Positions 4,411-22,285 of a stretch of DNA of 22,285 nucleotides are shown here, in pieces. Position 1 is the stretch's first letter; each line of letters starts with the position of its first letter. This DNA is from a virus, in the IMG/VR virus record IMGVR_UViG_3300031999_000216, positions 1 through 22,285 of that record, one strand, 5' to 3'. A program made the position numbers and the translations under genes. Below the pieces are notes generated by a model, which was not told the origin of the DNA, searched no databases, and saw only the letters and a program-made list of their open reading frames with translations.

Positions 4411-4438
4411 CCACAGAGGGCACAGAGGTCACAGAGAA
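4409..4438 (+). repeat. AGCCACAGAGG-family repeat, copy 3
   Basis: Begins inside the terminase stop codon. It forms a direct pair with 4715-4744 around the 4478-4690 ORF. Confidence 0.9.
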
Positions 4439-4441
4439 AAA

Positions 4442-4461
4442 GATTTGAGATTTGAGATTTG
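4442..4461 (+). repeat. 7-bp periodic array
   Basis: Three ATTTGAG units directly after the AGCCACAGAGG repeat and directly before the AAAGGCGGTGAC ribosome binding site of the 4478 ORF. Confidence 0.85.
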
Positions 4462-4477
4462 AAAGGCGGTGACATTG

Positions 4478-4690
4478 ATGGAATGGAATATAAGCAAAAA
4501 ATGGGACCTCGGCATTTACTATATGGGGTTCAGGTACGGGCTGATCGGCTACGCGGTTCAGGACAGGCCCTTATTTCTCCAGGTTGACTTATACATACTG
4601 CCGTTCTTTTGCCTGCAATTTTTCAAGATCAAGAAAGGTGATCGGGAAATATACGAGCACGCGAAAAAATACTGGAACTCAGGGAAATAA
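4478..4690 (+). CDS. Small hypothetical protein, aromatic-rich
   Basis: ATG at 4478 is chosen over an in-frame GTG at 4469 because AAAGGCGGTG ends about seven bases before it, and the same leader precedes the 2232 ORF. The 70-residue product is rich in Tyr, Phe and Trp (MEWNISKKWDLGIYYMGFRY...) with a hydrophobic central segment (LFLQVDLYILPFFCLQFF, about residues 31-48). That segment could be membrane-associated, although it contains Asp and Gln. The gene lies between direct AGCCACAGAGG repeats downstream of the terminase and is AT-rich compared with its neighbours. No family recognised; likely a moron. Confidence 0.6.
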   Translation: MEWNISKKWDLGIYYMGFRYGLIGYAVQDRPLFLQVDLYILPFFCLQFFKIKKGDREIYEHAKKYWNSGK

Positions 4691-6753: not shown

Positions 6754-8261
6754 AAAAACAATCCTCATCATCCCGGCCGATCGTCATCGAGCAGCACAAG
6801 GGCTATTACGGCTCGTTAGGCTACCGGTCGGTGATTGTGGCGACGGGCGAGGGCCGAAGCTATACATCGTATCCCGGCTCGGCCCACGAGGAGATGGACC
6901 GGAAGAACCTGATCGCCCAGTCGCGGGAGTTCATGCGCGATAACGCGATCTACAAGGGCATGATCGACCGGATGGTCGACTATATCGTCGGCAACGGCTT
7001 CGAGCTGCAATTATCCGGCGGCGATAAAGAGTCGCTCGCAAAGACCGAGGGACTTTGGCGAGACTTCAACCGCAGGCCCGAGATCCGCAATTTACTGTCC
7101 GGGTCGATGGTTGCCAAGATGGTGCTGAGGGAAGTGCTCGTGGCCGGCGATACGGCGATCCTGAAAACCGACCAGGGTCTGATCCAGCATTTCGAGGCCG
7201 AGCAGATCGACAGCAGGCGGACGAAGGACAAGTCGGGGGCCTTAGTCAACGGGATCGTTAAGAATGAGTTCGGCCGGCCGGTGAAATTCAATTTGTGCCC
7301 GTGGAAAAGTTATTCGGTAGATATCACTAACGGCAAGAGCGTCGATGCGACCGAGGTATTGTACCTGACAAATCCCGAGCGGCCCAGCCAGGTCCGTGGC
7401 GTCCCGGCGTGCCAGGCCTCGTTCCCCATGCTGCACAGGATCAACGATGTCTGCGACAGCGAGGCGATCGCGTGGCAGCTCCTGGCCCGGATTGCAATCT
7501 CGATCGAGCGGGAGGGCGGGCCGGAAATGGCGTACACCGAATCGAAGGAGGATACGGACAAGTCGGCCGAGGAGCTGGAGGGCAACCTGGCCACGAGAAT
7601 AACCGAGATGGCTTACGCCCTTATTTTCCACGCCAGGCCGGGCGAGAAGATAACGGGGGTCGAGCGGAACATTCCCGGGCAGAACTTCGGCGAGTCGGTA
7701 AGAACGTTCCTGCGATTATTGGGCCTGCCGATCGGGCTGCCGCTGGAGCTGATCCTTTTGGACTGGACGAAATCCAATTACTCGCAGAGCCGCGCCGTCC
7801 TGGAGCAGGCGTTCGAAACATTCCTTGGCTGGCAGCAGATAATCGAGGATTTTTATTACCGGCCGCTCTTCGAGTGGAAATTGGAAACGTGGAAAAAGAA
7901 CGCCCTCGTTCCCGCCGACTCCGATTTCAAGGTCGAGTGGATCAAGAAGACTTTCCCCTGGATCGATCCCTTGAAGGAGGCCCAGGCCTACGCCACGCAG
8001 GTCGAGCGGGCCTTCACAACCCATACGCGGGCATGCAAGAGCCTGAATCTTGACCAGCAGGAGGTGACCGAACAGCGAGGCAAGGAGATATCGGCCGCGA
8101 TCAAAATAGCCCAGGGTATCGAGAAGGATACGGGCGTCAAGGTCCCGTGGGAATACTTCGCCGGAATCAAGCCGGGCGTGGATAAGAAAGAGACGGCCGG
8201 CCCGGCGGAGAAAGAAGAGGGTGACACTATCGATGAAAATGGAGACAAACAGGATGAATAA
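6750..8261 (+). CDS. Portal protein, lambda gpB-like
   Basis: Forms the dodecameric ring at the head vertex through which DNA enters. At 503 residues it is close to lambda gpB (533). The family pattern is visible: an N-terminal stretch with ARE-like helices (MDRKNLIAQSREFMRDNAIYKGMIDRMVDYIVGNGFEL, about 50-88), a conserved segment LIQHFEAEQIDSRR, the clip/wing region around GVPACQASFPMLHRINDVCDSE, and the C-terminal LPLELILLDWTKSNYSQSRAVLEQ (about 325-350) typical of lambda-family portals. It ends in a charged acidic tail. Translation is coupled to the W-like gene by an ATGA overlap, and the protease gene begins inside its last codons. Confidence 0.95.
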   Translation: MKKQSSSSRPIVIEQHKGYYGSLGYRSVIVATGEGRSYTSYPGSAHEEMDRKNLIAQSREFMRDNAIYKGMIDRMVDYIVGNGFELQLSGGDKESLAKTEGLWRDFNRRPEIRNLLSGSMVAKMVLREVLVAGDTAILKTDQGLIQHFEAEQIDSRRTKDKSGALVNGIVKNEFGRPVKFNLCPWKSYSVDITNGKSVDATEVLYLTNPERPSQVRGVPACQASFPMLHRINDVCDSEAIAWQLLARIAISIEREGGPEMAYTESKEDTDKSAEELEGNLATRITEMAYALIFHARPGEKITGVERNIPGQNFGESVRTFLRLLGLPIGLPLELILLDWTKSNYSQSRAVLEQAFETFLGWQQIIEDFYYRPLFEWKLETWKKNALVPADSDFKVEWIKKTFPWIDPLKEAQAYATQVERAFTTHTRACKSLNLDQQEVTEQRGKEISAAIKIAQGIEKDTGVKVPWEYFAGIKPGVDKKETAGPAEKEEGDTIDENGDKQDE

Positions 8262-9637: not shown

Positions 9638-10096
9638 ATGTCGACACAATCAGACAGCCCAAAGTCGTTCCTCGCGGGCGAGGCGATCGCGGCGTTCCTG
9701 CGGGTCAAGGCCAACGGCCGGACGGTGTACTTAGCCGATGCGACCGATTACGGGATCGGGGTCTCGCAGATAGGCGTGGCCATAAGCGTTTATGTCCCGG
9801 TCCGGCTGGACAGCCACGGAGGCTCATCCAAGATGACGGCCTCCGGCGCGGTATTGGCCGGCAGGAAGGTCTACGCCGCGGCAAGCGGGAAGATCGCGGC
9901 GACGGGGACACTGCTGATAGGAACGGCCCTTGATGCGGCCAGCGGCAACGGCAGCGTTATCGAGGTACTGCCTCATTTGGGCTTAAAACAGTCGAGCTCA
10001 TCGTCCAGCTCATCGAGCTCCTCAAGCTCCAGCTCCTCGCTGTCAAGCAGCTCGGAATCGTCCAGCTCGTCGAGCTCGTCAAGCTCCAGCAGTTAA
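9638..10096 (+). CDS. Capsid decoration protein 1 (DUF2190-like) with poly-Ser tail
   Basis: Probable capsid cement/decoration protein in the place of lambda D, between protease/scaffold and major capsid gene. Residues 1-118 form a compact Gly/Ala-rich beta domain (GEAIAAFLRVKANGRTVYLADATD, then KVYAAASGKIAATGTLLIGTALDAA) typical of DUF2190 proteins, which are often misannotated as recombinases. The last 34 residues are Ser apart from one Leu and one Glu. The tract uses mixed TCG, AGC, TCA and TCC codons, so it is not a simple triplet expansion. AAGG precedes the ATG. A second, about 89% identical copy follows. The tail would project from the shell; function of the tail is unknown. Confidence 0.8.
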   Translation: MSTQSDSPKSFLAGEAIAAFLRVKANGRTVYLADATDYGIGVSQIGVAISVYVPVRLDSHGGSSKMTASGAVLAGRKVYAAASGKIAATGTLLIGTALDAASGNGSVIEVLPHLGLKQSSSSSSSSSSSSSSSSLSSSSESSSSSSSSSSSS

Positions 10097-10130
10097 GTGA
10101 CATGGAAAAATTTAGATTAAGGAGATAATC

Positions 10131-10520
10131 ATGGCGACACAGAGTGACAGTCCCAAGTCGTTCCTCGCGGGCGAGGCGATTGCGGCGTTCCTGCGCGTCA
10201 AGGCGTACGGCCGGACGGCTTACCTGGCCGATGCAACCGATTACGGAATCGGGGTCGCGCAGATCGGCGTGGCCATCAGCGTGGATGTCGAGATCCGCCT
10301 GGACAGCCACGGGGGATCGTCCAAAATGACGGCCTCCGGGGCGATATCGGCGGGTGCGAAGGTCTACGCGGCGGCAAGCGGCAAGATAGCCGCGACGGGC
10401 ACGCTGCTGATAGGCACGGCCCTGGATGCGGCAAGCGGAAACGGAAGCGTTATCGAGGTCCTGCCCCACCCGGGGTACCAGCAGTCGAGCTCATCCTCGT
10501 CGAGCAGCTCCAGCTCGTGA
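10131..10520 (+). CDS. Capsid decoration protein 2 (paralogue) with short poly-Ser tail
   Basis: Tandem copy of the preceding gene. By hand alignment about 13 of 118 domain residues differ, with clusters at YVPV/DVEI (about 52-55), VLAGR/ISAGA (72-76) and the last residues before the tail. The tail is only 11 Ser. AAGGAG lies eight bases before the ATG, a better ribosome binding site than the first copy has, so this may be the main product. Both copies may be built into one capsid, giving long and short surface extensions in some ratio. Confidence 0.8.
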   Translation: MATQSDSPKSFLAGEAIAAFLRVKAYGRTAYLADATDYGIGVAQIGVAISVDVEIRLDSHGGSSKMTASGAISAGAKVYAAASGKIAATGTLLIGTALDAASGNGSVIEVLPHPGYQQSSSSSSSSSSS

Positions 10521-10585
10521 CGTTCGGGGAAATGAAAAAAACAGGGGCAATGAAAAAGAAAAGTTTCTTTTAAAGGAGTAAAAAA

Positions 10586-11545
10586 ATGATTCAGAAAAGC
10601 ACACACGCGGTCCCGCGTATGGATTTGGGCGAGGCCTTCCACGAATTCTCGGCCGAGGGCATGCGGTTTATAGCGATGGACATCCTGCCGAGAAAGCCGT
10701 TGGGGAAAAAGGCGGCCACGCTGAGCGTTACCAAGCGAAAGAACCTGACGATACCCCAGACCAGGCGGGCGAACGGGGCGACCTACGGCCGGATCGAATG
10801 GTACATGGACGACCTGGCGTACAGCTGCGTGAACCACGGCCTGGAAGGGCAGGTAACCGATGAGGACGTCGAGAACTACAAGACCGATTTCGACGCCGAG
10901 CTGGAAAAGACGCAGGGCATTAAGCTCAAGATGCAGTTGGCCCGGGAAAAGAGGGTCAAGGAGCTCGTTTTCAATACAACGACCTGGCCGTCTGGCACGG
11001 CGGCCCTTTATACCGACAATTCATCCGCACCCTGGGACGCCGCGGCCTCCGATATCATCGGCCAGCTCAGGGCGGGCCAGGAAAAGGTCAGGGCCAATAC
11101 GGGCAGGAAGCCGAACACGCTTATCATCGGCGAGGGCGCTATGAACAATATGTTGGCCAATACGGCGCTTATCGCGAGGTTCCCGGGCATCCCCGTGCTT
11201 ACCGAGCAGATATTCCGGGGCAGGATGGCCGACCTGATCGGGATCCAGAACCTGCTCGTCGGCCAGGCGGTCTACAACACGGCGGACGAGGGCCAGGACT
11301 TTACGGGCGGGGATATCTGGCCGGACGACTACGCGATGCTGGCCGTATTGGGCACCGAGTCCACGCCGATGGTCGAGGGGCACCTTGGCCGGACCATTAT
11401 CTGGGACCAGTACACCGCGGATATCGAGTACATGGAGAGCTACCGCGAAGAGCAGACGGAGTCGGAAATCATCCGGTGCAAGGAATACATCGATGAGAAA
11501 ATCTTCGATGCGTATTTCGCACACCTGATGAAGATCGACGCCTGA
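10586..11545 (+). CDS. Major capsid protein, lambda gpE-like
   Basis: Main shell protein with the HK97 fold. At 319 residues it is near lambda gpE (341). It has a strong Shine-Dalgarno sequence (AAAGGAG, eight bases before ATG), as expected for the most abundant virion protein. Family features include an N-terminal arm, a long charged helix (EDVENYKTDFDAELEKTQGIKLKM, about 93-116; spine helix), NTLIIGEGAMNNMLAN (about 175-190), and VLTEQIFRGRMADLIGIQNLLVGQAVYNTA in the A-domain. No poly-Ser tail, unlike the decoration proteins. Lies directly after them, as E follows D in lambda. Confidence 0.92.
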   Translation: MIQKSTHAVPRMDLGEAFHEFSAEGMRFIAMDILPRKPLGKKAATLSVTKRKNLTIPQTRRANGATYGRIEWYMDDLAYSCVNHGLEGQVTDEDVENYKTDFDAELEKTQGIKLKMQLAREKRVKELVFNTTTWPSGTAALYTDNSSAPWDAAASDIIGQLRAGQEKVRANTGRKPNTLIIGEGAMNNMLANTALIARFPGIPVLTEQIFRGRMADLIGIQNLLVGQAVYNTADEGQDFTGGDIWPDDYAMLAVLGTESTPMVEGHLGRTIIWDQYTADIEYMESYREEQTESEIIRCKEYIDEKIFDAYFAHLMKIDA

Positions 11546-11548
11546 GCG

Positions 11549-11576
11549 ATCTGAAATTTGAGATCTGAGATTTGAA
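11549..11576 (+). repeat. 7-bp periodic array
   Basis: Four ATTTGAG/ATCTGAG-type units ending one base before the ATG at 11578, with no Shine-Dalgarno site between. Confidence 0.85.
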
Positions 11577-11577
11577 T

Positions 11578-11901
11578 ATGTCGGATGTATTCGACGATAC
11601 ACTGGCCGCGGCGGCGGGAAGTTTCTTCCTGCTGCCCGGCTGCGAGACTGTGACTTATTACCCGGTCTCGGGAACGGCCCGGAAAATAAGCGCCGTGATC
11701 ACCAGGTCCGAGCCGGGCAAGATGCCGGCGATCAACGCTCTTGTAATGAACAGTCAGACCGGGGGCATATCGAGCGAGCTGGTCGATACCGGCGGGGATA
11801 AGATCGAATGTGCAAAACGGGCCGGGGCGCCGCCGAAGCTGCTCCGCATAACGGAGATCATCAACCAGGATGCGGGGCTGATGCTGCTGGCGGCAAGTTG
11901 A
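11578..11901 (+). CDS. gpFII-like head-tail connector (probable)
   Basis: A 107-residue protein directly after the capsid gene, where lambda has FI/FII. The start ATG 11578 directly follows a 7-bp array. The N-terminus (MSDVFDDTLAAAAGSFFLL) is helical; the remainder appears to be beta-rich (TVTYYPVSGTARKISAVITRS ... LLRITEIINQDAGLMLL), as in FII-type joining proteins, which bind below gpW and accept the tail. Size is near FII (117). Similarity is weak and position is the main argument. Confidence 0.6.
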   Translation: MSDVFDDTLAAAAGSFFLLPGCETVTYYPVSGTARKISAVITRSEPGKMPAINALVMNSQTGGISSELVDTGGDKIECAKRAGAPPKLLRITEIINQDAGLMLLAAS

Positions 11902-11902
11902 A

Positions 11903-11931
11903 AATTTGAAATTTGAGATTTGAGATTTGAG
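11903..11931 (+). repeat. 7-bp periodic array
   Basis: Four ATTTGAR units in perfect 7-bp phase, ending one base before the ATG at 11933. Confidence 0.9.
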
Positions 11932-11932
11932 A

Positions 11933-12529
11933 ATGTTCGAGATCCGTTACGACAATAAGAAGATCAAAAGGCTCGAGCGAGAGCTTGCCGGGTTCCCCCG
12001 CAGCAGCCTGCCTAAGGTAATGAGCCGGGGCCTGAACCGGACTGCGAGCGAGGCGAGGACGAAGGTCGGCCGGATGATCTCGCAGGAAACGGGCTTGAAG
12101 GTCAAGACCGTCCGGGACCGCGTGTCACTCGTGCGGGCGAGCTATACCAGCTGGCGGTCGATAGTTAAGATCAGCCGCAGAAGAATTCCCCTTTATAATT
12201 TTTCGGCCAGGCAGACGGGCAAGGGGGTCACGTACAAGAAGGGCGGCACGCGGGTACTGATCAGGCACGCGTTCGAAGCGACGATGAAAAGCGGCCATAC
12301 GGGCGTTTTCCACCGGGCAAGGCACATGCTGAATATCGGCCATTTCGTGCCGATGGTGAGTAAAAAATCGAAAGAGGCGATTTACGAACTCAAGGGTCCA
12401 TCTCTCGGCCAGGTATTTGTCAGTGCCCAGGACCGGGCGGATGCCATCTACCGGGAATCCATGCAGCGTCTGGAAAGGAATATTCACGACCAGGTCAATC
12501 TTATCCTGAAAGCGAGGCTGCCGGCATGA
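11933..12529 (+). CDS. Minor tail protein Z-like
   Basis: A 198-residue basic protein (lambda gpZ is 192) starting at ATG 11933, right after a 7-bp array. The family pattern is clear: MSRGLNRTASEARTKVGRMI (about 30-49) followed by TGLKVKTVRDRV and a C-terminal helix. gpZ acts late in tail assembly at the head-proximal end and is needed for proper DNA placement in the tail. The gene lies between FII- and U-like genes as in lambda and overlaps the next start by ATGA, indicating coupled translation. Confidence 0.82.
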   Translation: MFEIRYDNKKIKRLERELAGFPRSSLPKVMSRGLNRTASEARTKVGRMISQETGLKVKTVRDRVSLVRASYTSWRSIVKISRRRIPLYNFSARQTGKGVTYKKGGTRVLIRHAFEATMKSGHTGVFHRARHMLNIGHFVPMVSKKSKEAIYELKGPSLGQVFVSAQDRADAIYRESMQRLERNIHDQVNLILKARLPA

Positions 12530-12993
12530 GCGATTCTATAATCGAGCAGATTGCCGTTAAGATAACGGCCTTAGTCGATGCGGTCACCGTCGCAAACGGG
12601 TTCCACCAGACCCTTACCGCGGTAAGGCCCAAGCGGATCCACCTGGAAGGTGACATCAATACCGACCTTACGGTAATCGTCGAGCAGGATGCGGAGGCTG
12701 TTATCGAGGAGGACTCGAATACCGTGGTAATCTGGCGTCAGGGTTTCGCATTGCAGGCCCTGGTGATCGATTCGGACGATGCGACCGCGGCGATCGATAC
12801 GCGGCTCAACCAGGTCCGGAGCGATATCGAAAAGAAGCTGATGACCGGGGATAACTGGCAGTTGGACGGCCTGGGCGAAATTCTTCTCAAGAGCGCGGAA
12901 AAATTCATAGCCGACCCGCAGGTCGCGGGGATCTCGGTAAATATAGATGTGCTGTACGAAGTCAATAAAGCGGATCCTTATTCGCAGGCATAA
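12526..12993 (+). CDS. Tail terminator, gpU-like (probable)
   Basis: A 155-residue protein that starts within the Z-like stop codon. An alpha/beta layout with IEQIAVKITALVDAVT at the N-terminus, a central strand set (LTVIVEQDAEAVIEED...VVIWRQGFALQALVI) and a long helix (AAIDTRLNQVRSDIEKKLM) fits tail terminator proteins. These cap the tail tube at its final length and form the surface that joins the head. Position after Z and before the tube protein matches lambda U (131 residues). Confidence 0.7.
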   Translation: MSDSIIEQIAVKITALVDAVTVANGFHQTLTAVRPKRIHLEGDINTDLTVIVEQDAEAVIEEDSNTVVIWRQGFALQALVIDSDDATAAIDTRLNQVRSDIEKKLMTGDNWQLDGLGEILLKSAEKFIADPQVAGISVNIDVLYEVNKADPYSQA

Positions 12994-13004
12994 AGGAGAA
13001 AAAA

Positions 13005-13424
13005 ATGGATTTATACGGATGGACATTAACCGGATCGGTGAGCGGCGCGATAGGCAAGCTGACAAATTTCAGCTGGACGGGATTGAGCGAGGACGAGATC
13101 GACGTCACCAACGCCGACTCGACGGACAAGTGGAACGAGTACGAAGGAGGGTTCAAGGACCCGGGCGTGCTGTCGGCGACACTGCTGTTCCAGCCGGCAC
13201 TTTTTGAGACGATATTGACCGCCTTCGCAGGGGCGAACCAGGTATGGACGCTTGCAAAAGATACCAAGACCCTGAAAGTGACCGGTCACATACGGTCGGC
13301 CTCGCTTGAGCTGCCGCTTCGCACGGCCGCGACTCACCCGATAGAGATCCGCTGCAGCGGGCTGCCCGCCTTCAACAGCAGTTTATCGTCTTCGTCTTCG
13401 AGCAGCAGCAGCTCAAGCTCTTAA
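13005..13424 (+). CDS. Major tail tube protein, gpV-like, with poly-Ser tail
   Basis: Hexamers of this protein stack into the tail tube. AGGAG lies seven bases before the ATG. The core (residues 1-124) shows the tube-protein pattern FSWTGLSEDEIDVTNADSTD, then EYEGGFKDPGVLSATLLF. It ends SSL followed by 12 Ser. Lambda gpV carries a C-terminal Ig-like domain at this position; here it is replaced by poly-Ser, which would project along the whole tail. The gene is followed by a 7-bp array and the G/T chaperone pair, as in lambda. Confidence 0.85.
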   Translation: MDLYGWTLTGSVSGAIGKLTNFSWTGLSEDEIDVTNADSTDKWNEYEGGFKDPGVLSATLLFQPALFETILTAFAGANQVWTLAKDTKTLKVTGHIRSASLELPLRTAATHPIEIRCSGLPAFNSSLSSSSSSSSSSSS

Positions 13425-13430
13425 TTAGTT

Positions 13431-13460
13431 TCAGATTTGAAATTTAAGATTTGAGATTTG
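13431..13460 (+). repeat. 7-bp periodic array
   Basis: Four ATTTGAR/ATTTAAG units between the tube gene and the chaperone gene. Confidence 0.85.
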
Positions 13461-13492
13461 AAACATTTTTATAACGAAAGGAGATTTTTTGA

Positions 13493-13915
13493 ATGGAAAC
13501 ATGGGCCACAAAAGAGGGGTTCTTCAAGTGCCCGGTACCCCGCGAGCGAAAGACGGTCCCGGGGCTGGGCGATATCTGGATCTACGGCCTGACTAACGCA
13601 GAGAAGGACGATTACGAGGACAAGGTCATATCCGTCAGGGCCGGAAGCAGGCAGGTGAAGCTGAAGAACGCACGGGCGGTCCTGATGTCACTTGTCGTAT
13701 TCGACAAGAACGGCAAGCGGATGTTCGGCGAGGCCGATATCGGCCGGCTCTTGCTGGTCCCGGCGTTCGTGACCGACCCGGTGCTCGATATCGCCCGCAG
13801 ACTCTCGGGCATGCGAACGGGTGAGGAAGAGGAATTAGTAAAAAACTCTGCGGGCCCGGGGGACGAAGAGAGCGGCTCCGGTTCCGAATCGCCGAAGCCC
13901 GGGGATGGTCGGTAG
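13493..13915 (+). CDS. Tail assembly chaperone, gpG-like
   Basis: A 140-residue protein, the same length as lambda gpG, behind a strong GAAAGGAG ribosome binding site. It binds the tape measure protein and recruits tube protein during tail assembly. The N-terminal 110 residues are mixed alpha/beta (GDIWIYGLTNAEKDDYEDKV...); the C-terminus after residue 112 is low-complexity and acidic (EEEELVKNSAGPGDEESG...), as expected for a tail made only when no frameshift occurs. A slippery heptamer lies at codons 116-118. The frame continues into the next ORF by -1 shifting. Confidence 0.85.
   Translation: METWATKEGFFKCPVPRERKTVPGLGDIWIYGLTNAEKDDYEDKVISVRAGSRQVKLKNARAVLMSLVVFDKNGKRMFGEADIGRLLLVPAFVTDPVLDIARRLSGMRTGEEEELVKNSAGPGDEESGSGSESPKPGDGR
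13840..13846 (+). promoter_or_regulatory. -1 ribosomal frameshift site A_AAA_AAC
   Basis: The zero frame reads GTA-AAA-AAC, so the heptamer is in perfect phase for simultaneous slippage. After a -1 shift, reading continues CTC-TGC-GGG without a stop to 14139. GC-rich sequence that could fold begins about six bases downstream. Lambda uses a G_GGA_AAG site at the same place in G. Confidence 0.88.
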
Positions 13916-14139
13916 CGGAAGTGACGATGCGCCTGTCCGCATTCGAAGAGAGGCAGCTCGAGATTCTCGAATCGATAGATCCCTGGGGCCAGAAAAGGGA
14001 TGATTACCGGGCGGCCAAGATCATCCAGGCCTTCCGGGGCGGCAGGATTAAGGACATCTTGAAGGAGTTCGATTTCGAGACGCCGGGCGAGCAGCCGGAT
14101 GAGGATATCGAAGAAATAATTAACCGCGGATTACGCTGA
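13846..14139 (+). CDS. T-like extension of the tail chaperone, made by -1 frameshift
   Basis: In the -1 frame there is no stop between the slippery site and 14139, giving a G-T fusion of about 215 residues (118 from G plus 97). The conserved-looking part begins near 13921 (MRLSAFEERQLEILESIDPWGQKRDDYRAAKIIQAF). A GTG/ATG there has no ribosome binding site, so independent translation is unlikely. The T part is expected to bind the tube protein while G binds the tape measure. The last residues (NRGLR) come from a CCGCGGATTACG-family repeat that overlaps the stop. Confidence 0.83.
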   Translation, partial: LCGPGGRRERLRFRIAEARGWSVAEVTMRLSAFEERQLEILESIDPWGQKRDDYRAAKIIQAFRGGRIKDILKEFDFETPGEQPDEDIEEIINRGLR

Positions 14140-14150
14140 TTACGCAGATT
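14122..14150 (+). repeat. CCGCGGATTACG-family repeat, copy 2
   Basis: AACCGCGGATTACGCTGATT and a further ACGCAGATT. It supplies the last codons and stop of the T-like ORF and is followed by a 7-bp array up to the tape measure ATG. Confidence 0.8.
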
Positions 14151-14154
14151 CAAA

Positions 14155-14177
14155 AATAATAAATCGGAAATCGTAAA
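14155..14177 (-). repeat. 7-bp periodic array
   Basis: Three AAATCGNA-type units reaching the ATG at 14177, with no Shine-Dalgarno site. Confidence 0.75.
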
Positions 14178-16504
14178 TGAGCTTAATGACACAGGTCGGT
14201 TTGGAGTTCGTGGCCCGCGACAGTTCGAGATCGGTTATCGCATCGTTTACCGACTCGATCCATATGACCGGCAGAAGCATACAGACACTGGGGCGGAACG
14301 TACTGGCCCTGGCCGGCGTCGGCGGCGGTTTTTACATGTTGGGCAATATGCTGCGGAGCGGGGTGCGGGAGGCGGCGGCGTTCGAAAAACAGATGGCCGA
14401 GGTCTCGACCATGCTGAACGAGCAATCTATATCCCTGATGCCCCGATATACCGACCAGATCCGGGCAATGAGCAGGGAGTTCGGCGAGGGTACGGAAACG
14501 CTGTCGAAGGGTCTTTACGATATCCTTTCGGCTTCAATCGCACCTGCCGAGGCCCTCGACGTCCTGGCGGTTTCAACCAGGGCGGCCAAGGCGGGCCTGA
14601 CTGATACGGGCACGGCGGCCGATGTCATTACGACAATCCTCAATTCCTACAGCCTGGAGGCGTCGAGGGCGGGCGACATTTCCGATAAGCTTTTCAATAT
14701 AGTATTCCGGGGCAAGACGATCTTTTCGGAGCTGGCCCCCAATATCGGCAAGGTAGCCGCGCTGGCCGCGACGGCGGGCGAATCCTTCGACGATCTTGGC
14801 GCGGCCATAGCGACGATGACCCGGGCCGGCGTCAAGACGGATATTGCCGTGACATCGCTGCGGGCGATCATACTGAGCTTTCTAAAGCCCCAGTCCGACT
14901 CGATAGAGATGGCCCGCAAGTACGGGGTCGAGCTAAACAGCAATACGCTGCGAACTATCGGGCTGACCGGTGTTATCGAAAAGCTTAAAAAAGCCACTGC
15001 AGAGGAGCTTGCCGTCATTGTTCCTACCTCTCGCGCGATTACGGGATTCGCCGCCGCCGTGCAAAAGTCGGATGAGCTTGCGGGCGATTACGATTTGATG
15101 CTCAACTCGCTCGGTGCGACCGAGACGGCTTACCAGAAAATCGCCGCAACTTCTGCCCACCAGCTCGATCAGCTCAACCAGGAATGGATCGATATGAAAA
15201 GGGCTGTCGGCGATCTTGCAACCGGGCCGCTGATCGGGTTTTTGACGCTTGTCAGGAAGGGAGTGGAAGAGATATCGCAGGCCGTTGATAATTCGCGTAA
15301 AGCGATAGAAAATTTTAATAATTATATAACGAAGCACGGGCTGGCCTCGGCGGGTAAGCAGACTTACGGCAGTTGGGCGCCCATGCCGGAGGTTAAAGCT
15401 CCGTTGGGGCCGAGTGCTGAAGGCGCTGCAATGAAAGCGGAAATCGAGCGGCAGCAGACGCTGGCGATGATGGCCGCAATGCAATTAAAAGGATTGTCCT
15501 CCTTTCAATTTCCGGAAAGGGAGATCAAGGCGCCGGAACGCAACGCCGGATACGAATTCATCGGGCCTCCGGAGCCGGGCAAGGAATATTTGGCCGCCCG
15601 GAAAAAAATAGATGAACAGATCGTCGCCGATACCCGCGAGAAACTCACTTCGATCCGGGCGATGGACGATCTGACGCGGATGGAGAAAATCCAGAACCTC
15701 AAGGCCTACATGGCCGAGCATGCCGATACCCTGGCCGGAGTGGCGGAGGCGGAGAAACTTTTGTCGGATGAAATGGAATCTATTCTCAAAAGCCGGTCAG
15801 ATGCGATGAAGGTCTATTGCGCCGAGCTGAGGGAGGACTTCCAGAGTTTGGGCCTGTATATCTCGGAGAAATTCGCCGAGGCGAGCCGGTCGATAGAGAG
15901 CGGGCTGAGCGGGGCGTTTTTAAGCCTGCGGGAAGAGGGATCGAATTTTCGCTCGTTCATGGTCAACGTATTTACTTCGATCCAGGATTCGTTCGCGAAG
16001 ATGTTAGCCGACATGGCGGCCAGGGCGATGATGAATGCCGCTGTCGCCCCGGTGATGAATGTCCTGAGCGGTGTCCTGGGCGGTGCGCTCGGCAGTTTGT
16101 TTGGGGGAATCGGGAATCAAATCGGCAGCCCCAATTACGCTCCTAATTACAGCACTACATCGTCAAACGCGGGTGTACCTATACCCGAATCGATAATGAC
16201 GGGCAAACTGCACGGGGGCTGGGTCCCGGAGGGTGTGCCGAGCTTTCAAGGGGGCAGGGGACTTAAATCGAATGAGATGGCGGCGATTATCGAAAAGGAT
16301 GAGCTGCTGGCCCCGGCCGGCCAGGTTATCAGGTCACCGTTCAGCCGGGGTGGCTCTGCTCCGAACGTGATAATAAATAATAATACCGGCCGGCCGATCG
16401 AGCAGGATGGCCCTCCGCAGTTCGACGGTGAGAAATGGGTGGTTGCCCTGGTCGCAAAAAATATCAGCGAGGGCGGCAGTCTGAGTAAATTGATGAAGAA
16501 ATAA
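14177..16504 (+). CDS. Tail tape measure protein, gpH-like (TP901 family)
   Basis: Sets tail length and passes into the host envelope with the DNA. A 775-residue protein with the TP901-type core (AAAFEKQMAEVSTMLNEQS at about 69-87, then GTETLSKGLYDILSAS and the ITTILNSYSLEASRAGDISDKL region). A hydrophobic segment lies at about 41-63 (LALAGVGGGFYMLGNML), and a second Ala/Gly/Val-rich one at about 615-648; these may form the membrane-entering parts. The middle (about 340-540) is helical and low in complexity. By the usual scaling of about 1.5 angstrom per residue the tail would be roughly 115 nm. Start follows a 7-bp array. Confidence 0.93.
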   Translation: MSLMTQVGLEFVARDSSRSVIASFTDSIHMTGRSIQTLGRNVLALAGVGGGFYMLGNMLRSGVREAAAFEKQMAEVSTMLNEQSISLMPRYTDQIRAMSREFGEGTETLSKGLYDILSASIAPAEALDVLAVSTRAAKAGLTDTGTAADVITTILNSYSLEASRAGDISDKLFNIVFRGKTIFSELAPNIGKVAALAATAGESFDDLGAAIATMTRAGVKTDIAVTSLRAIILSFLKPQSDSIEMARKYGVELNSNTLRTIGLTGVIEKLKKATAEELAVIVPTSRAITGFAAAVQKSDELAGDYDLMLNSLGATETAYQKIAATSAHQLDQLNQEWIDMKRAVGDLATGPLIGFLTLVRKGVEEISQAVDNSRKAIENFNNYITKHGLASAGKQTYGSWAPMPEVKAPLGPSAEGAAMKAEIERQQTLAMMAAMQLKGLSSFQFPEREIKAPERNAGYEFIGPPEPGKEYLAARKKIDEQIVADTREKLTSIRAMDDLTRMEKIQNLKAYMAEHADTLAGVAEAEKLLSDEMESILKSRSDAMKVYCAELREDFQSLGLYISEKFAEASRSIESGLSGAFLSLREEGSNFRSFMVNVFTSIQDSFAKMLADMAARAMMNAAVAPVMNVLSGVLGGALGSLFGGIGNQIGSPNYAPNYSTTSSNAGVPIPESIMTGKLHGGWVPEGVPSFQGGRGLKSNEMAAIIEKDELLAPAGQVIRSPFSRGGSAPNVIINNNTGRPIEQDGPPQFDGEKWVVALVAKNISEGGSLSKLMKK

Positions 16505-16506
16505 TC

Positions 16507-16968
16507 ATGGCATCTTTTCCGACATTAACGCGGGCGGTATCACACCGGGGCTTTACCGAGACCAAGCTGATCGATCCCACCATAAGAAGCGAGTTTTCAT
16601 CCGGAGCGATCAGCACGCGGGCGAGATTCTCCGGGACGGTACCGAGACTGTTCAATGTCACGTACCATCACATCTCGGCCGCCGACAAGGTCCTCCTGGA
16701 GGATTTCGAGAACAATACAAACGTAGGCGCGGTGACTTTCAACTGGACCAATATTCTGACGAGTGCCGGTTGGATAATGAGGCTGAACAGGCCCATCGAG
16801 TTCGGGCTGGAGCCCAACTGCATCGATAAATACTTCGCCAAGATAGAGATGTTCGGAACGGTGGGATCGTCGAGCTCGTCGAGCCTGTCAAGCTCTTCAT
16901 CTGAAAGTTCGAGCAGTTCATCCGAATCGTCCAACTCCTCAAGCAGCTCATCCAGCGGGGGCGCTTAA
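16507..16968 (+). CDS. Minor tail protein, gpM-like, with poly-Ser tail
   Basis: Starts two bases after the tape measure stop. Residues 1-119 fit the lambda gpM pattern: a beta-rich fold with RSEFSSGAISTRARFSGTVP, a helix (SAADKVLLEDFENN) and a FNWTN strand. gpM is a distal tail protein at the tube-tip junction. About 26 Ser follow, broken by one Leu, two Glu and one Asn, and the end is GGA. Lambda gpM (109 residues) has no such tail. Codons in the tract are mixed, as in the decoration and tube genes. Confidence 0.75.
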   Translation: MASFPTLTRAVSHRGFTETKLIDPTIRSEFSSGAISTRARFSGTVPRLFNVTYHHISAADKVLLEDFENNTNVGAVTFNWTNILTSAGWIMRLNRPIEFGLEPNCIDKYFAKIEMFGTVGSSSSSSLSSSSSESSSSSSESSNSSSSSSSGGA

Positions 16969-16970
16969 TA

Positions 16971-16990
16971 ATTTGAAATTTGAGATTTGA
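16971..16990 (+). repeat. 7-bp periodic array
   Basis: Three ATTTGAR units ending three bases before the ATG at 16994. Confidence 0.85.
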
Positions 16991-16993
16991 GAG

Positions 16994-17617
16994 ATGCCTG
17001 AAGAAATTGATAAATATATAAGTATCGAAAAGAACAAGCTGTCGAGCGGCGGCGCGTGGCTGTGGCTGCTCGATATTTATATCGACGGCGAGGACACGCT
17101 GCGTTTCGTCAATAACATCGAAAGCATCACGTACCTGGGCACGCTGTACAACAAGTGCAATTTTCAGATGAGCCCGTACGATAAAAGCGAGCCCGGCAGG
17201 CTGAGCAATATCAATCTCGAAATAACCAATACCGACCTGGTCAGGTACGTGCTGCCTTACGTCGACGATTACAACGGCCTTATCGGCTGCAATATCGTCA
17301 GGACGCCCGTCAATTCCAAATTCCTGGCAATAGACATGTCGGCCAAGAGCGAGGATTTTATCGTCACCGGCTGCTCGGCCGGCGAGGAATGGATCAGCTT
17401 TGTCCTTGGCGCCCCGAGCCCGTTGAGCCGGAGTTTTCCCGCCTCCCGGTATTTCGGCGGGTACTGCCGCTACGTCGCCAAGTTCAAGGGCGTCGAATGC
17501 GCGGCAGGGTCGGGAGCTTCCTGTAACGGCACGCCGGAAAACTGCGAGGACCTCGGCAATTTACCGAGGTTCGGCGGCCAGCCGGGACTGAGGGCCAACG
17601 CGGTACGATTCGCATGA
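16994..17617 (+). CDS. Minor tail protein, gpL-like
   Basis: A 207-residue tail tip protein (lambda gpL is 232). The C-terminal region holds four cysteines at 158, 169, 177 and 184 (YCRY...VECAAG...SCNG...ENC) followed by LPRFGGQPGL, which is the gpL signature. In lambda those cysteines coordinate an iron-sulfur cluster, and the same is expected here. The N-terminal part is beta-rich (WLWLLDIYIDGEDTLRFVN). The stop overlaps the next start by ATGA, and order M-L-K is as in lambda. Confidence 0.88.
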   Translation: MPEEIDKYISIEKNKLSSGGAWLWLLDIYIDGEDTLRFVNNIESITYLGTLYNKCNFQMSPYDKSEPGRLSNINLEITNTDLVRYVLPYVDDYNGLIGCNIVRTPVNSKFLAIDMSAKSEDFIVTGCSAGEEWISFVLGAPSPLSRSFPASRYFGGYCRYVAKFKGVECAAGSGASCNGTPENCEDLGNLPRFGGQPGLRANAVRFA

Positions 17618-18024
17618 TAAAGACAGAAGACAGGATCGATATCGCCGATCTGATCGGCAAGCCCTACAAAGAAGGCGGGCGCGGCCCGGCCAATTATGAC
17701 TGCTGGGGTATCTGCATGGCGGCGGCCGCCCGGGCGTCAATCGAGCTGCCGGATATCGAAGTGCCGGAAGGCAGCGAGTTGAGGGCCAAAATTATCGAAG
17801 AGCAAAGTCAAACCAGATTCAGGAGGATTGACACACCCGGGGCATATTCGATATCGCTTTTCAGGATTATCGACGATGCCAATAAGATCAAATGGCACGT
17901 TGGTCTAGTCCTTGAAAACGGCAGGGACTTTATCCATACCACGGGGAAGATGGGAGTGAATATATCATCCCTGGCGGACCCGTTATGGCGGCTGTTCCTG
18001 GAGGGTTTTTATGAATTGTCTTAA
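17614..18024 (+). CDS. NlpC/P60 peptidase, gpK-like tail tip hydrolase
   Basis: A 136-residue papain-like peptidase. Catalytic Cys30 is in YDCWG, His95 in WHVGLVL, and His108 in DFIHTTG is a likely third residue. It lacks the N-terminal JAB/Mov34 metalloprotease domain that lambda gpK has (199 residues). Such enzymes cleave peptidoglycan peptides during DNA entry or help tail tip assembly. Planctomycetes have atypical thin peptidoglycan, so the target is of interest if the host guess is right. It overlaps the L-like gene by 4 bases and the J-like gene by 14. Confidence 0.9.
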   Translation: MIKTEDRIDIADLIGKPYKEGGRGPANYDCWGICMAAAARASIELPDIEVPEGSELRAKIIEEQSQTRFRRIDTPGAYSISLFRIIDDANKIKWHVGLVLENGRDFIHTTGKMGVNISSLADPLWRLFLEGFYELS

Positions 18025-20224
18025 AATCATCTCGGTTGTAAACCCTTTCGATCTTTCCGACCGCAATGTCGAGAATGTCCCTTTTACCGGCCAGAATTTG
18101 TCCGATATAATCAACAAATACGCCGCCGGCATGGATGAGGTGATAGTCCACGTCAATCAGATGAAGCTCGATCCTGTCGAAAAAGAAAAATACAATCTCG
18201 CATTAAAGGCCGGGGATGAGATCGTGCTTATCCCGGCCGTGCGTGATGTGGTGGGAGCGATCGTGGCGGTCGCATCCTGGGTAGCGACGTCGGCGGGCTA
18301 CGCGAGCGTCACCGCGATGCTGGTATCGACGGCGATAGCCATCGGGGTATCTATAGGCATTGCTTACCTTATCCGGGCGATCGGGTCATCCCCGGACGAT
18401 GCGGAGATAGAATCGACTTCCACCTATTCATGGTCGCCTGCAACCGTACAGAGGCAGGGGACACCGGTACCGCGGCGATACGGCACGAATAAGGAATTCG
18501 GCAATATTATCGCCGCATGGCGGGCACCGGATGGGGCAGATGAGACGCTCTATACGCTGATATCCTTCGGTGATGGGCCGGACGGCGGGATCGTTGCCGA
18601 TTCGATATATATAAATAACCAGCCGGCGGACAATTACGATGGTGTTACGACGGCCGAACGAAAAGGGACCTTGTCTCAAAGTGCGGTATTCTCAACGCTC
18701 AAATGCGAGTACCAGCCGGCGATAGAGGTAATCAACGTCGCCGACGGAGGCGGTGCTTATACCTGGACCACGCCTGATAAAGATTTTAACTGGCTCGAGA
18801 TAGCCTTGAAATATTCGGGGCACTTAGTTAAGGAAGACGGCGGCGTCCGCACCCAGTACGTGGCCATAAAAATAGAAATTTCGGCCCACGGGGCGGAGAC
18901 CTGGTACACGCTGGCCGATGAAATCCTTGTCTGTGCAAACTGGCCTATGCAGAAAAACTACGTATCGACGGGAACCTATACGGGCGGCTCACCCGTAAGC
19001 ATTACGAAGGGCACCCGGTGCGACATAAGAGTGACCAAGACCAATACCGGGCGTCTGTTTATGAGCAACAGGGCATCCCGGTATTTATGGCTGGCGACGG
19101 TGAGGGAAGTGATCAATACGGCCTTTACATATCCCGGGCTGGCCCTGTTAGGCATATCGGCGCTGGCTACAGAGAACCTGAGCGGGTCATTGCAGATAAG
19201 CTGCATAAGGAAGGGCCGGATCGTCAATGTCTACGATGGTTCGAGCTGGGCGCTCGAATGGTCGGACAACCCGGTATGGGTGATATGGGACATACTTACC
19301 CGGCCTGTAATAAGCGGCGACGGGGACGGCACACCGTACGCAATAGAGCGGTACGATGGCATCGACCCGGCCAGGCTGACACCGTATCTCGATGAATGGT
19401 ACGATGCCGCCGACTATTTCGACGATCTTATAAGCGATGGGCAGGGCGATACGCAGAAAAGGATAATTTTCAACGGTGTCTTCGATGAAAGCACCACGGT
19501 ATGGGAGGCGGTGAACAGGGTCTGCGCGATGGCGCGCTGCGAGGTCCTGAGAATCGGCCGCAATTATACCATACTGGTCGATAAGCCTTACACCGGCAAC
19601 CCGGTCCAGCTTTTCAGTGCGGGCAATATCAAGCCAGGCTCGTACCGCAAAAATTATATAGACCTCGAGGACCGGGCGGGCGAGCTGCAGATAGATTACC
19701 TCGATAAGGATATCGACTACCAGATGACGCCGATGCTTCACGTCGATACGGCGATCGACAGCACGGCGTCGAAGACCATCGAGGGGTTCGGCATAACAAG
19801 GGCCACGCAGGCCTGGCGGGCCATATATTACGAATTGGCCAAGAACAGGGTCCTGAAGTACATGACGACTTTCGAGGCCGATATAGATGCGATCGCCTGC
19901 AAGAAAGGCGATATCGTCCTGGTCGTAGAGCCCTGGCGATTGGGCGGGCGGATAGCCAGCTGCACGGCGAACAATAAGGTGATACTGGAAACACCGCCTT
20001 CCATCTCGGCGGCCGATACGCTGGCGGTCAGGGTAAATCATCCCGATACCGGCGCCGAGACCGTCGAGACGCACACAGTATCGAGCGTCGACGGGACGGA
20101 GGTCACGATTGCCGATACCTGGACGGTGACGCCGAAAAAAGACGACCTGTACGCGTTCGGTCCTACGGGCAGTATTATCAAGAAGTTCCGGGTCGTAGGC
20201 ATAACCCAGGGTTCCGAAATATGA
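18011..20224 (+). CDS. Tail tip attachment protein, gpJ-like
   Basis: Central tip protein that decides host binding. GGAGGG lies about ten bases before ATG 18011. Residues 1-78 form a small beta-grasp-like domain (NPFDLSDRNVENVPFTGQNL ... GDEIVLIPAV), as if the lambda gpI-type domain were fused on; no separate I gene exists here. Two hydrophobic helices at about 80-122 (VVGAIVAVASWVATSAG, LVSTAIAIGVSIGIAYLI) are usual in I/J-type proteins. The J core begins near residue 150 (VQRQGTPVPRRYGTNKEFGNI). At 737 residues it is shorter than lambda J (1132) and lacks the long C-terminal fibronectin/receptor part, which may have moved to the small genes downstream. Confidence 0.88.
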   Translation: MNCLKIISVVNPFDLSDRNVENVPFTGQNLSDIINKYAAGMDEVIVHVNQMKLDPVEKEKYNLALKAGDEIVLIPAVRDVVGAIVAVASWVATSAGYASVTAMLVSTAIAIGVSIGIAYLIRAIGSSPDDAEIESTSTYSWSPATVQRQGTPVPRRYGTNKEFGNIIAAWRAPDGADETLYTLISFGDGPDGGIVADSIYINNQPADNYDGVTTAERKGTLSQSAVFSTLKCEYQPAIEVINVADGGGAYTWTTPDKDFNWLEIALKYSGHLVKEDGGVRTQYVAIKIEISAHGAETWYTLADEILVCANWPMQKNYVSTGTYTGGSPVSITKGTRCDIRVTKTNTGRLFMSNRASRYLWLATVREVINTAFTYPGLALLGISALATENLSGSLQISCIRKGRIVNVYDGSSWALEWSDNPVWVIWDILTRPVISGDGDGTPYAIERYDGIDPARLTPYLDEWYDAADYFDDLISDGQGDTQKRIIFNGVFDESTTVWEAVNRVCAMARCEVLRIGRNYTILVDKPYTGNPVQLFSAGNIKPGSYRKNYIDLEDRAGELQIDYLDKDIDYQMTPMLHVDTAIDSTASKTIEGFGITRATQAWRAIYYELAKNRVLKYMTTFEADIDAIACKKGDIVLVVEPWRLGGRIASCTANNKVILETPPSISAADTLAVRVNHPDTGAETVETHTVSSVDGTEVTIADTWTVTPKKDDLYAFGPTGSIIKKFRVVGITQGSEI

Positions 20225-20484
20225 GTCTGAAAATTACTTTAATCGAATACAACGAGGACATATACGACGGGGATGAAAGCGAGCCGGATATCCAGTACAG
20301 GGATTATGCCGCTACGGATCTGGGCGGAGAGGATGGTGATGCAAAAAGTGAAATAGTGGAAAGAGAGCGGCGATCCTGGGAGCTGGATGTCAAGCTCGAC
20401 GGTTTGCACGATTATTTGATTGGGATATCGAGTTTTTCGAGCAGCAGCAGCTCTTCGAGCAGCAGCTCATCGAGCGGGGCCTGA
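20221..20484 (+). CDS. Tip accessory protein A, ends in poly-Ser
   Basis: An 87-residue ORF starting in the stop codon of the J-like gene (ATGA). Residues 1-66 begin MSLKITLIEYNEDIYDGD with EPDIQYRD at about 21-28, a pattern shared with the next gene. The end is SSF, about 13 Ser and GA. Being translationally coupled to J suggests a small tail tip or fibre-base protein. No known family recognised. The tail is the same kind of Ser tract as in four other virion genes. Confidence 0.65.
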   Translation: MSLKITLIEYNEDIYDGDESEPDIQYRDYAATDLGGEDGDAKSEIVERERRSWELDVKLDGLHDYLIGISSFSSSSSSSSSSSSSGA

Positions 20485-20489
20485 TCGGC

Positions 20490-21212
20490 ATGGCACAGAA
20501 AATAACTTTAATCGAATACGATGATGGCATATACGCCGGTGACGATGCCGAGCCGGATATCCAGTATCGCGATGTCCATCCCTGCGTAAGCGGCAATAAC
20601 AGGATCCCGGAGGATGTCCAGGCCGAGTTCGATGACGTTGAAATTGCCCGCAGGATAGAGGACATGCGAAATTATGCGTATGTGATATCCAGCTCATCGA
20701 GCTCATCGATCAGTTCCTCGAGTTCCAGCGTCAGCCCATCCTTTAGCACTTGTTATTTTCCAGGCGATTCAACAAGTCTTCTATGTGCCCAAACATTTAC
20801 ACCATCTGCAAATCATAAAATTACAAAAGTTAATTTGGTGGTTGGTGATTTTTGGGAATACGGTTTAACTGGAACATTATATGTGCAGATTCGTTCTACG
20901 TCTGGAGGACAACCAACGGAAACTATTTTATGTTCAGGTTCTATAGATGCTTCGACTTTACCTGTCTGGCCGTATTCCTTTGTAGAAATATCACTCGGAA
21001 GTGGATGTGATATTATTGAAGGTGTTACTTATGCAATAGTAATTTCATTTCCTGAATTTTTTAATACAGGTGAAGTAGAAGATCGTAATGTTATTGGTTG
21101 GTTTTATGAGGATTCAGATATTTATGCAGGTGGTCGTGTATTTTGTTGGGACGGTGATGCGTGGGATACATATGTTGCATATGCAAACCAAGATTTTTAT
21201 TTTGAGGAATAA
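20490..21212 (+). CDS. Tip accessory protein B: shared N-terminus, poly-Ser linker, foreign C-terminal domain
   Basis: A 240-residue paralogue of the preceding protein: MAQKITLIEYDDGIYAGDDA then EPDIQYRD. A linker of seven Ser, Ile, six Ser (about residues 67-80) follows. After it lies a C-terminal domain of about 155 residues (from FSTCYFPGDSTSLLCAQTFT) with the pattern of beta-sandwich binding domains: AQTFTPSANHKITKV, GTLYVQIRSTSGGQPTETIL and GVTYAIVISF. The DNA of this domain is strongly AT-rich from about 20747, in sharp contrast to the first 250 bases. It is a good candidate receptor- or glycan-binding protein gained by recombination. Exact family unknown. Confidence 0.7.
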   Translation: MAQKITLIEYDDGIYAGDDAEPDIQYRDVHPCVSGNNRIPEDVQAEFDDVEIARRIEDMRNYAYVISSSSSSSISSSSSSVSPSFSTCYFPGDSTSLLCAQTFTPSANHKITKVNLVVGDFWEYGLTGTLYVQIRSTSGGQPTETILCSGSIDASTLPVWPYSFVEISLGSGCDIIEGVTYAIVISFPEFFNTGEVEDRNVIGWFYEDSDIYAGGRVFCWDGDAWDTYVAYANQDFYFEE

Positions 21213-21562: not shown

Positions 21563-21753
21563 AGCCGGGCAGGCACATAAAAAGGCTGCTACGTGAATGC
21601 TACCGCATCCAGGGGCACGGGCACTGCCGGGATGCGGCGGATTTCGTGCGGGTCAAGGATATCGAGACAGCGGTGCAGGACCTGGCAGACAATTTTGAGA
21701 ATCAAAAACTGATGGAAAACAAAAGGAGATGGCCGTGGAATTTCCGTCGATAG
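21559..21753 (+). CDS. Small hypothetical protein (64 aa)
   Basis: Starts in the stop codon of the holin-like gene (ATGA overlap), so probably co-translated. The product is basic, with MKPGRHIKRLLRECYRIQGH at the N-terminus and a Cys/His-rich segment (CYRIQGHGHCRDAADF, about 14-29). C-terminal RRWPWNFRR overlaps the methyltransferase start by 19 bases. Family not recognised. Coupling suggests a role in lysis or an accessory of the next enzyme. Confidence 0.55.
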   Translation: MKPGRHIKRLLRECYRIQGHGHCRDAADFVRVKDIETAVQDLADNFENQKLMENKRRWPWNFRR

Positions 21754-22285
21754 AGCAATGGCGGTCAATCGTCTTAGCGCCCGGGGAAGAGAAGTTCGGG
21801 CGATTGGACTTTTACGAATATTACCGGGAAAAGTTCCGGATCTGCCGGCTCTGCGGGCCGGCGTCGATTGCGGAGATCGGGGTCAGGTGGGGCTATTCGG
21901 CGTTCGCGTTCCTGTTCGCAGCGCCGGGGGCCTCTTATACCGGCTGGGACTTTATAGGCGGCGGGCACGGAGGTGTTAAGGATGACACGTTCCCAAGGGT
22001 GCGGAAAATACTGGAGCAAAACTTCCCCGGCGCGAAGATCGATCTTATCCACGCGGACACGCGGACGCTCGAAAGTCTGGGAGGGCCTTATGATTTCGTC
22101 CACGTGGACGGCAACCATTCGATAATGGGGGTGGCGCACGATTTGAAGATCGCTTTCCAATCGCTGGCGCCGGGCGGCGTCATATTAGTGGATGATTACG
22201 AGTACATCGGCGGCGTTAAGGTCGCGACCAATGGTTTCATTTTGAGTTATCGCGATAAGATCGAGCAGTTCTATACGGTCGAATC
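21735..22285 (+). CDS. Class I SAM-dependent methyltransferase, 3'-truncated by window edge
   Basis: Open to the last base, with at least 183 codons. GTG 21735 is preferred because AGGAG ends six bases upstream; an in-frame ATG at 21729 touches the Shine-Dalgarno site. Motif I is IAEIGVRWGYSA (residues 45-56), the acidic motif is YTGWD (68-72), YDFVHVDGNHSI is at 119-130, and the post-motif LAPGGVILVDDY at 144-155. This is the Methyltransf_24 pattern, a family often acting on sugars, small molecules or glycoconjugates rather than DNA. CRLC (37-40) is an extra Cys pair. As a cargo gene after the lysis-like genes it could modify glycans on virion or host surface; the substrate is unknown. Confidence 0.85.
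   Translation, partial: MEFPSIEQWRSIVLAPGEEKFGRLDFYEYYREKFRICRLCGPASIAEIGVRWGYSAFAFLFAAPGASYTGWDFIGGGHGGVKDDTFPRVRKILEQNFPGAKIDLIHADTRTLESLGGPYDFVHVDGNHSIMGVAHDLKIAFQSLAPGGVILVDDYEYIGGVKVATNGFILSYRDKIEQFYTVE

Follow-up and report, generated by a model that had tools for sequence, protein, structure and literature searches.

In phages of the lambda type, Ig-like domains occupy C-terminal display sites of tail and decoration proteins. In mycobacteriophages, capsid and tail-tube proteins carry glycans at their C termini (Freeman et al. 2023, as cited in PMC12619734 and PMC11600133), and cluster O members, according to PMC11600133, encode three tandem glycosyltransferase genes downstream of an O-methyltransferase gene. 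Among bacteria, the autotransporter heptosyltransferase TibC glycosylates serine and not threonine and harbors an iron finger consisting of C339, C342, C358, and C370 (PMC4358343), and polyserine linkers are known in bacterial proteins (PMC2699552, PMC6821194). In the literature searched, with subscription journals mostly outside it, we found no paper describing poly-serine or serine tails on phage virions, and neither the poly-serine form on five or more proteins nor a TibC-like phage enzyme was found there.

We studied the linear virus record IMGVR_UViG_3300031999_000216, whose 22,285 bases are hereafter called the window. It encodes a structural module of the lambda/HK97 type, running from terminase to tail tip, with the following features.

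9638..10096, + strand: decoration (cement) protein 1 (Phage_cement_2, 24 bits; PHROG 673)
9992-10093: its long C-terminal serine tract, 34 residues, 32 of them serine
10131..10520, + strand: decoration (cement) protein 2 (Phage_cement_2, 32 bits)
10485-10517: its short C-terminal serine tract, 11 serines
10586..11545, + strand: major capsid protein, without tract (PHROG 1005, E 4e-46)
13005..13424, + strand: tail tube protein (Pfam Phage_TTP_11)
13377-13421: its C-terminal serine tract, SSL followed by 12 serines
16507..16968, + strand: M-like minor tail protein, named by position
16867-16956: its C-terminal serine tract, 30 residues, 26 of them serine, followed by GGA
18011..20224, + strand: J-like tail tip protein, without tract (PHROG 31, E 5e-87)
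20221..20484, + strand: tail-tip accessory protein A, named by position
20428-20475: its C-terminal serine tract, SSF followed by 13 serines, then GA
20490..21212, + strand: tail-tip accessory protein B, named by position
20688-20729: its internal serine tract, with an accessory-A-like N terminus before it and a variable C-terminal domain after it
21729..22283, + strand: Methyltransf_24 methyltransferase (PF13578, E 8e-15), first gene of a putative glycan cassette, cut by the contig end

Pfam and PHROG matches back the names of the decoration (Phage_cement_2), tail tube (Phage_TTP_11), L, K, and J proteins, while the M-like protein and accessory proteins A and B had no informative family match and owe their names to their position. 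The decoration proteins were identified by their match to PF09956 (32.3 bits for protein 2 and 23.9 for protein 1, versus a cut-off of 24) and by their site next to the major capsid gene. PHROG 673 labels the region 9638-10520 as "head scaffolding protein" where Pfam reports a cement protein, and the PHROG label looks doubtful. For the cores of the decoration and tail-tube proteins, single-sequence searches returned no homologue of solved structure, and a profile search gave only a marginal match, to the "capsid stabilization protein" 8qsy (E 0.14). The decoration protein model was poor (pLDDT 63) and unfit for fold search, so it is from knowledge of the family that its C terminus would be expected to face outward.

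The proposed system resembles mycobacteriophage virion glycosylation in that the phages, as seen in relatives of the window, encode glycosyltransferases and that the C termini of capsid-surface and tail-tube subunits are the acceptors, here candidate ones. Unlike in mycobacteriophages, long poly-serine tails are present on decoration, tail tube, M-like, and tip proteins, the major capsid protein has no tract, and the key enzyme belongs to glycosyltransferase family 9 and harbors four invariant cysteines. The proposed poly-serine system would thus be a variant of known virion glycosylation, and an earlier note on this DNA, which had stated that no described phage follows such a plan, went too far, since C-terminal glycans on mycobacteriophage capsid and tail-tube proteins are known.

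All six serine tracts lie on structural-module proteins where the earlier note had placed them, five at the C terminus and one, in accessory protein B, as a linker between two folded domains. Tracts are absent from the major capsid, portal, and tape measure proteins, as had also been claimed, and likewise from L, K, and J. A stray run of five serines (6781-6795) lies inside the portal gene but in another frame. All six serine codons are used (about 41% AGY, entropy of 1.8 to 2.4 bits per tract), the longest same-codon run per tract is 1 to 4, and the codon makeup is close to that of serines elsewhere in the window. These mixed codons and short runs indicate that the amino acid is kept rather than a triplet repeat, as previously suggested, and codon slippage was rejected as the origin of the tracts. 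Outside the tracts, serine has a share of 6.6%. At this frequency, chance would yield about 1e-8 runs at least 10 residues long, which rules out a chance origin.

To follow the tracts among related phages, we gathered relatives with a major capsid protein scan (20 viral relatives), to which an alignment scan added more, and compared orthologue profiles of the decoration, tail-tube, and M-like proteins. In each of the tract-lineage phages examined, the orthologues of the decoration, tail-tube, M-like, and tip-accessory proteins have tracts, over a range of 43 to 88% capsid identity and 48 to 67% GC. All close orthologues harbor a tract instead of ending at the core, and tracts are missing only in more distant relatives. 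Every complete tail tube orthologue of the tract lineages has one (typically 12 to 20 residues), as do the five M-like orthologues of L004, L005, L006, L010, and L022 (23 to 33 residues), while tracts of accessory A orthologues typically measure 13 to 55 residues. Tails of only 6 to 8 residues occur in L014 and in the L015-L021 group, in each case on one of the decoration paralogues. Orthologues of the portal, capsid, protease, tape measure, L, K, and J proteins are tract-free, and the protein at 12526-12993 has tract-bearing orthologues in L011 and L023. Altogether we counted 91 distinct tracts, 70 of which are C-terminal and 21 internal or not provably C-terminal; they are almost pure serine (1978 serines and 3 threonines among 2058 residues).

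Two further observations concern individual relatives. L007 has an extra short frame between its large terminase and portal genes (4174-4518; 115 amino acids from stop to stop) that ends in 16 serines. In the nearly identical phages L029 (3319-3612) and L028 (3659-4087), the tail tube of one carries a deletion, either real or an assembly join, that cuts off the end of the fold but keeps the serine tract in frame.

In a capsid tree of 56 rows, the tracts fall into one or two lineages (26 rows; two changes) inside a well-supported clade of 33 rows. Outside these lineages, decoration orthologues either end at the core (L041 and L042) or continue into a C-terminal extension (L036, L039, L040, and prophage G203, whose protein has 387 residues), and the M-like orthologue of L063-L066 ends without serine. 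The decoration C terminus therefore looks like a display slot that can be empty, filled with other sequence, or filled with serine. The idea that folded domains take this slot in other phages was borne out to the extent that some tract-less orthologues are extended by roughly 100 to 270 C-terminal residues. The tails would share with lambda-type Ig-like domains the C-terminal display sites of surface subunits, but they would be disordered, where the Ig-like domains are folded.

Very long tracts at L019:7561-8295 and L004:19799-20179 are built from tandem units of 13 residues (SSSSSSLSVSSST) or 5 residues (SSSSE), suggesting that tracts grow by duplication. Such expansion in length, together with the variation among phages of the domains that follow internal tracts, is what would be expected if the tracts were functionless products of events at the DNA level (slippage or recombination joints) or assembly errors. 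An assembly artefact, a concern the earlier note had raised itself, is excluded by more than 20 independent contigs whose orthologues have their tracts at matching positions. The codon mixture with same-codon runs of 1 to 4, the persistence of the same sites at 43% capsid identity and across 48 to 67% GC, and the regular pairing of short and long decoration tails make a functionless origin highly improbable.

This pairing was seen at 19 loci with two complete tracted decoration paralogues, corresponding to 16 distinct pairs in which the shorter tail measures 7 to 18 and the longer 19 to 116 residues. In 15 of the 16 pairs, one tail has at most 16 and the other at least 19 residues (permutation p = 9e-5, an indicative value since the cut-offs were set after the lengths had been seen), and the short and long genes occur in either order (8 and 8). 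The cores of the two window paralogues are about 89 to 90% identical, compared to 73% for the best match in other phages, and in several phages, including that of the window, the paralogues are closer to each other than to the copies of other phages. The length asymmetry thus seems to have arisen anew, or been preserved, in the course of duplication or gene conversion.

We then looked beyond the tail genes. All tract contigs that run past them (7/7) harbor family-9 glycosyltransferase and Methyltransf_24 genes at this place, in a cassette whose order is similar across tract phages and which usually includes an NAD-epimerase. Besides the latter, the cassette members located beyond the tail tip are as follows.

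Methyltransf_24 proteins, assigned by Pfam
"FFFTAVD" protein, with a DSD-type motif and no Pfam match, glycosyltransferase-like by this motif only
"GEFGWE" protein, with a family-9 match
protein of 600 to 700 residues, in which a family-9 glycosyltransferase domain (N-terminal) precedes one of group 1 (C-terminal)

The family-9 and group-1 Pfam matches in the relatives' cassette genes are above or near the cut-off, and the two-domain enzyme is found in seven contigs (G399, G400, G403, G404, G408, G409, and that of L023). The window includes the first methyltransferase before its contig ends, and this protein shares 69% identity with the methyltransferase of the L249 cassette. L014 and L023 are without recognizable copies of some members. 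The remaining tract contigs stop earlier, either inside the cassette (G398 and G405) or before its site. None of the nine tract-less relatives (G203, G411, and G413-G419) contains a cassette gene. The observed co-occurrence of cassette and tracts gives a Fisher value of 9e-5, which ignores kinship and is an upper bound on the strength of the association, because at most two tract lineages underlie it; the cassette is present in both of them. Finally, a further tract-bearing protein follows the cassette in L247, L259, and L194.

We considered whether the tracts could be unmodified flexible spacers or hydrophilic hairs, with the adjoining enzymes serving otherwise. Like the polyserine linkers of bacterial carbohydrate-active enzymes, they are long serine runs, some of which do link domains, as in accessory protein B and in L015-L017, where the M-like core is connected through a tract to a domain upstream of it, and the 21 of 91 tracts that are internal or not provably C-terminal fit this explanation. 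However, the phage tracts are mostly C-terminal tails on structural proteins, with no domain beyond them to link, and hardly any other residues occur in them: threonine is almost absent and glycine and proline are excluded, which is unusual for a spacer. Moreover, the cassette accompanies the tracts in both lineages and is missing from tract-less relatives. We therefore regard unmodified spacers as unlikely.

Another explanation is that the cassette has nothing to do with the tails and modifies either a host surface glycan, leading to superinfection exclusion or receptor change, or the phage DNA. Phage glycosyltransferases often act in such ways (PMC12619734), and an epimerase and methyltransferases would also suit the synthesis of an envelope polysaccharide. 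However, the cassette sits in the late structural module, with a tract protein even following it in several phages, no GT2-type glycosyltransferase, the type common in serotype conversion, was found in the phage contigs, and the family-9 domain resembles a protein-serine glycosyltransferase. Taken together, this makes an unrelated function of the cassette quite unlikely.

The family-9 domain (Pfam PF01075) was modeled at a pLDDT of 82 with a GT-B heptosyltransferase fold. Its best fold matches in Foldseek are heptosyltransferases, namely, TibC (TM 0.64 to 0.68, rmsd of about 5 Å) and WaaF (TM 0.63, 8.3 Å), the E value being better for WaaF. By sequence, the similarity to TibC is marginal (E 0.003 to 0.07), and the profile alignment reaches TibC residue 386, beyond the iron finger. 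Four cysteines are invariant among seven homologues (C241, C247, C255, and C265 in L259 numbering). The domain shares with TibC and AAH a GT-B family-9 fold, its cysteine cluster, at the corresponding place, may be a counterpart of the iron finger, and the serine-only acceptor of TibC matches the serine-only phage tracts. Unlike TibC and AAH, the phage enzyme carries a fused group-1 glycosyltransferase domain. Its cysteine spacing differs and is incomplete in some homologues: in four sequences, CX2C-X13-C-X9 (or longer)-C resembles the spacing of the TibC iron finger, while 3/7 lack C238, the first cysteine of the CX2C pair. In L145, L158, and L177, which are more distant, the motif was not seen. 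Since the phage model begins directly with the GT-B fold, the N-terminal beta-barrel of TibC seems to be absent. No match to the enzyme was found among 50,697 phage records. The likeness to TibC in modeled fold and cysteines, combined with the shared restriction to serine, points to a serine-specific protein glycosyltransferase, an enzyme of the lipopolysaccharide (LPS) type being the alternative identity.

As an independent sample, we searched IMG/VR with a degenerate serine-codon pattern, which matched at least 120 stretches. Among the matches listed, many unrelated viral contigs encode poly-serine proteins, some of them low-complexity proteins apparently foreign to this system. Within the stretches listed, relatives of the family-9 enzyme are encoded in nine contigs, compared to none in 40 random stretches plus the tract-less relatives (p of about 0.006); against the 40 random stretches alone, the same nine give p = 0.08. 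For the whole of Pfam family 9 in full contigs, the enrichment was not significant (9/50 poly-serine versus 3/29 random). L145 and L177 have a different capsid gene; next in line comes a tract protein, and after it a methyltransferase/family-9 fusion. This sample is thus supportive rather than decisive for a link between tracts and enzyme. Separately, the viral contig L091 (547,943 bases) encodes three poly-serine proteins and family-9 glycosyltransferase genes.

Concerning the host, L023 belongs to a Phycisphaerae metagenome-assembled genome (MAG), but its whole contig appears phage-derived, so this link is by binning alone. A tract-less sister phage with 48% capsid identity is an apparent prophage in a 124-kb contig of a Phycisphaerae-class genome, with cellular genes on either side and a recombinase-like gene at its end. 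Binning and sister prophage together make Planctomycetota likely hosts for the phage group and candidate hosts for the phage of the window. L318-L321 (G203, contig C31, about 22.5 to 59 kb) form a window-related apparent prophage without serine tracts or cassette in a genome of the Phycisphaerae class. A poly-serine habit of the host as a whole was not supported, as 264 kb of the MAG containing L023 include no serine run of 7 or more.

The earlier note had proposed serine hairs, perhaps serving as O-glycosylation sites. This is the best-supported reading, the cassette being found with the tracts and absent without them, and the sugars themselves are predicted. Given outer-shell and tail proteins with serine runs and adjoining sugar enzymes, the particles are probably coated with sugar-bearing hairs, and we consider it reasonably likely that flexible, disordered serine tails are O-glycosylated by glycosyltransferases of the phage itself, resulting in a glycan-haired virion. 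Capsid, tail, and tip subunits would be made with the serine-rich tails of 7 to 120 residues read from the genes, and the TibC-type-like family-9 glycosyltransferase would then place a first sugar on serine. The fused group-1 domain and the "GEFGWE" and "FFFTAVD" proteins may lengthen the glycan, with the epimerase providing sugar and the Methyltransf_24 enzymes O-methylating the product. Upon assembly of the coated subunits, the decoration proteins would display hairs on the head, the tail tube along the tail shaft, and the M-like and accessory proteins at the tail tip, and short and long decoration tails may set the density and reach of the coat. We infer that such outward-exposed hairs would let the particles adhere reversibly to polymers on the host surface, keep them colloidally stable, and shield them, as Ig-like and other outward domains presumably do on other phages. 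More tentatively, and as a possibility that we put forward with some reserve, a lineage of phages, probably of Planctomycetota, would bear a glycan brush in which poly-serine tails are hyperglycosylated by a TibC-like phage serine system and O-methylated, short and long decoration hairs tune the coat, and similar sets of tails and enzymes operate in phages with other capsid genes.

If this is true, serine tails next to a family-9/methyltransferase cassette would be a mark of glycosylated virions that can be read from the genomes of uncultivated phages, and virion glycosylation could be tested by expressing two or three genes. It would also suggest that phages recruited a serine hyperglycosylation enzyme of the bacterial type, as well as a coating strategy for the phages of Planctomycetota, a little-known group.
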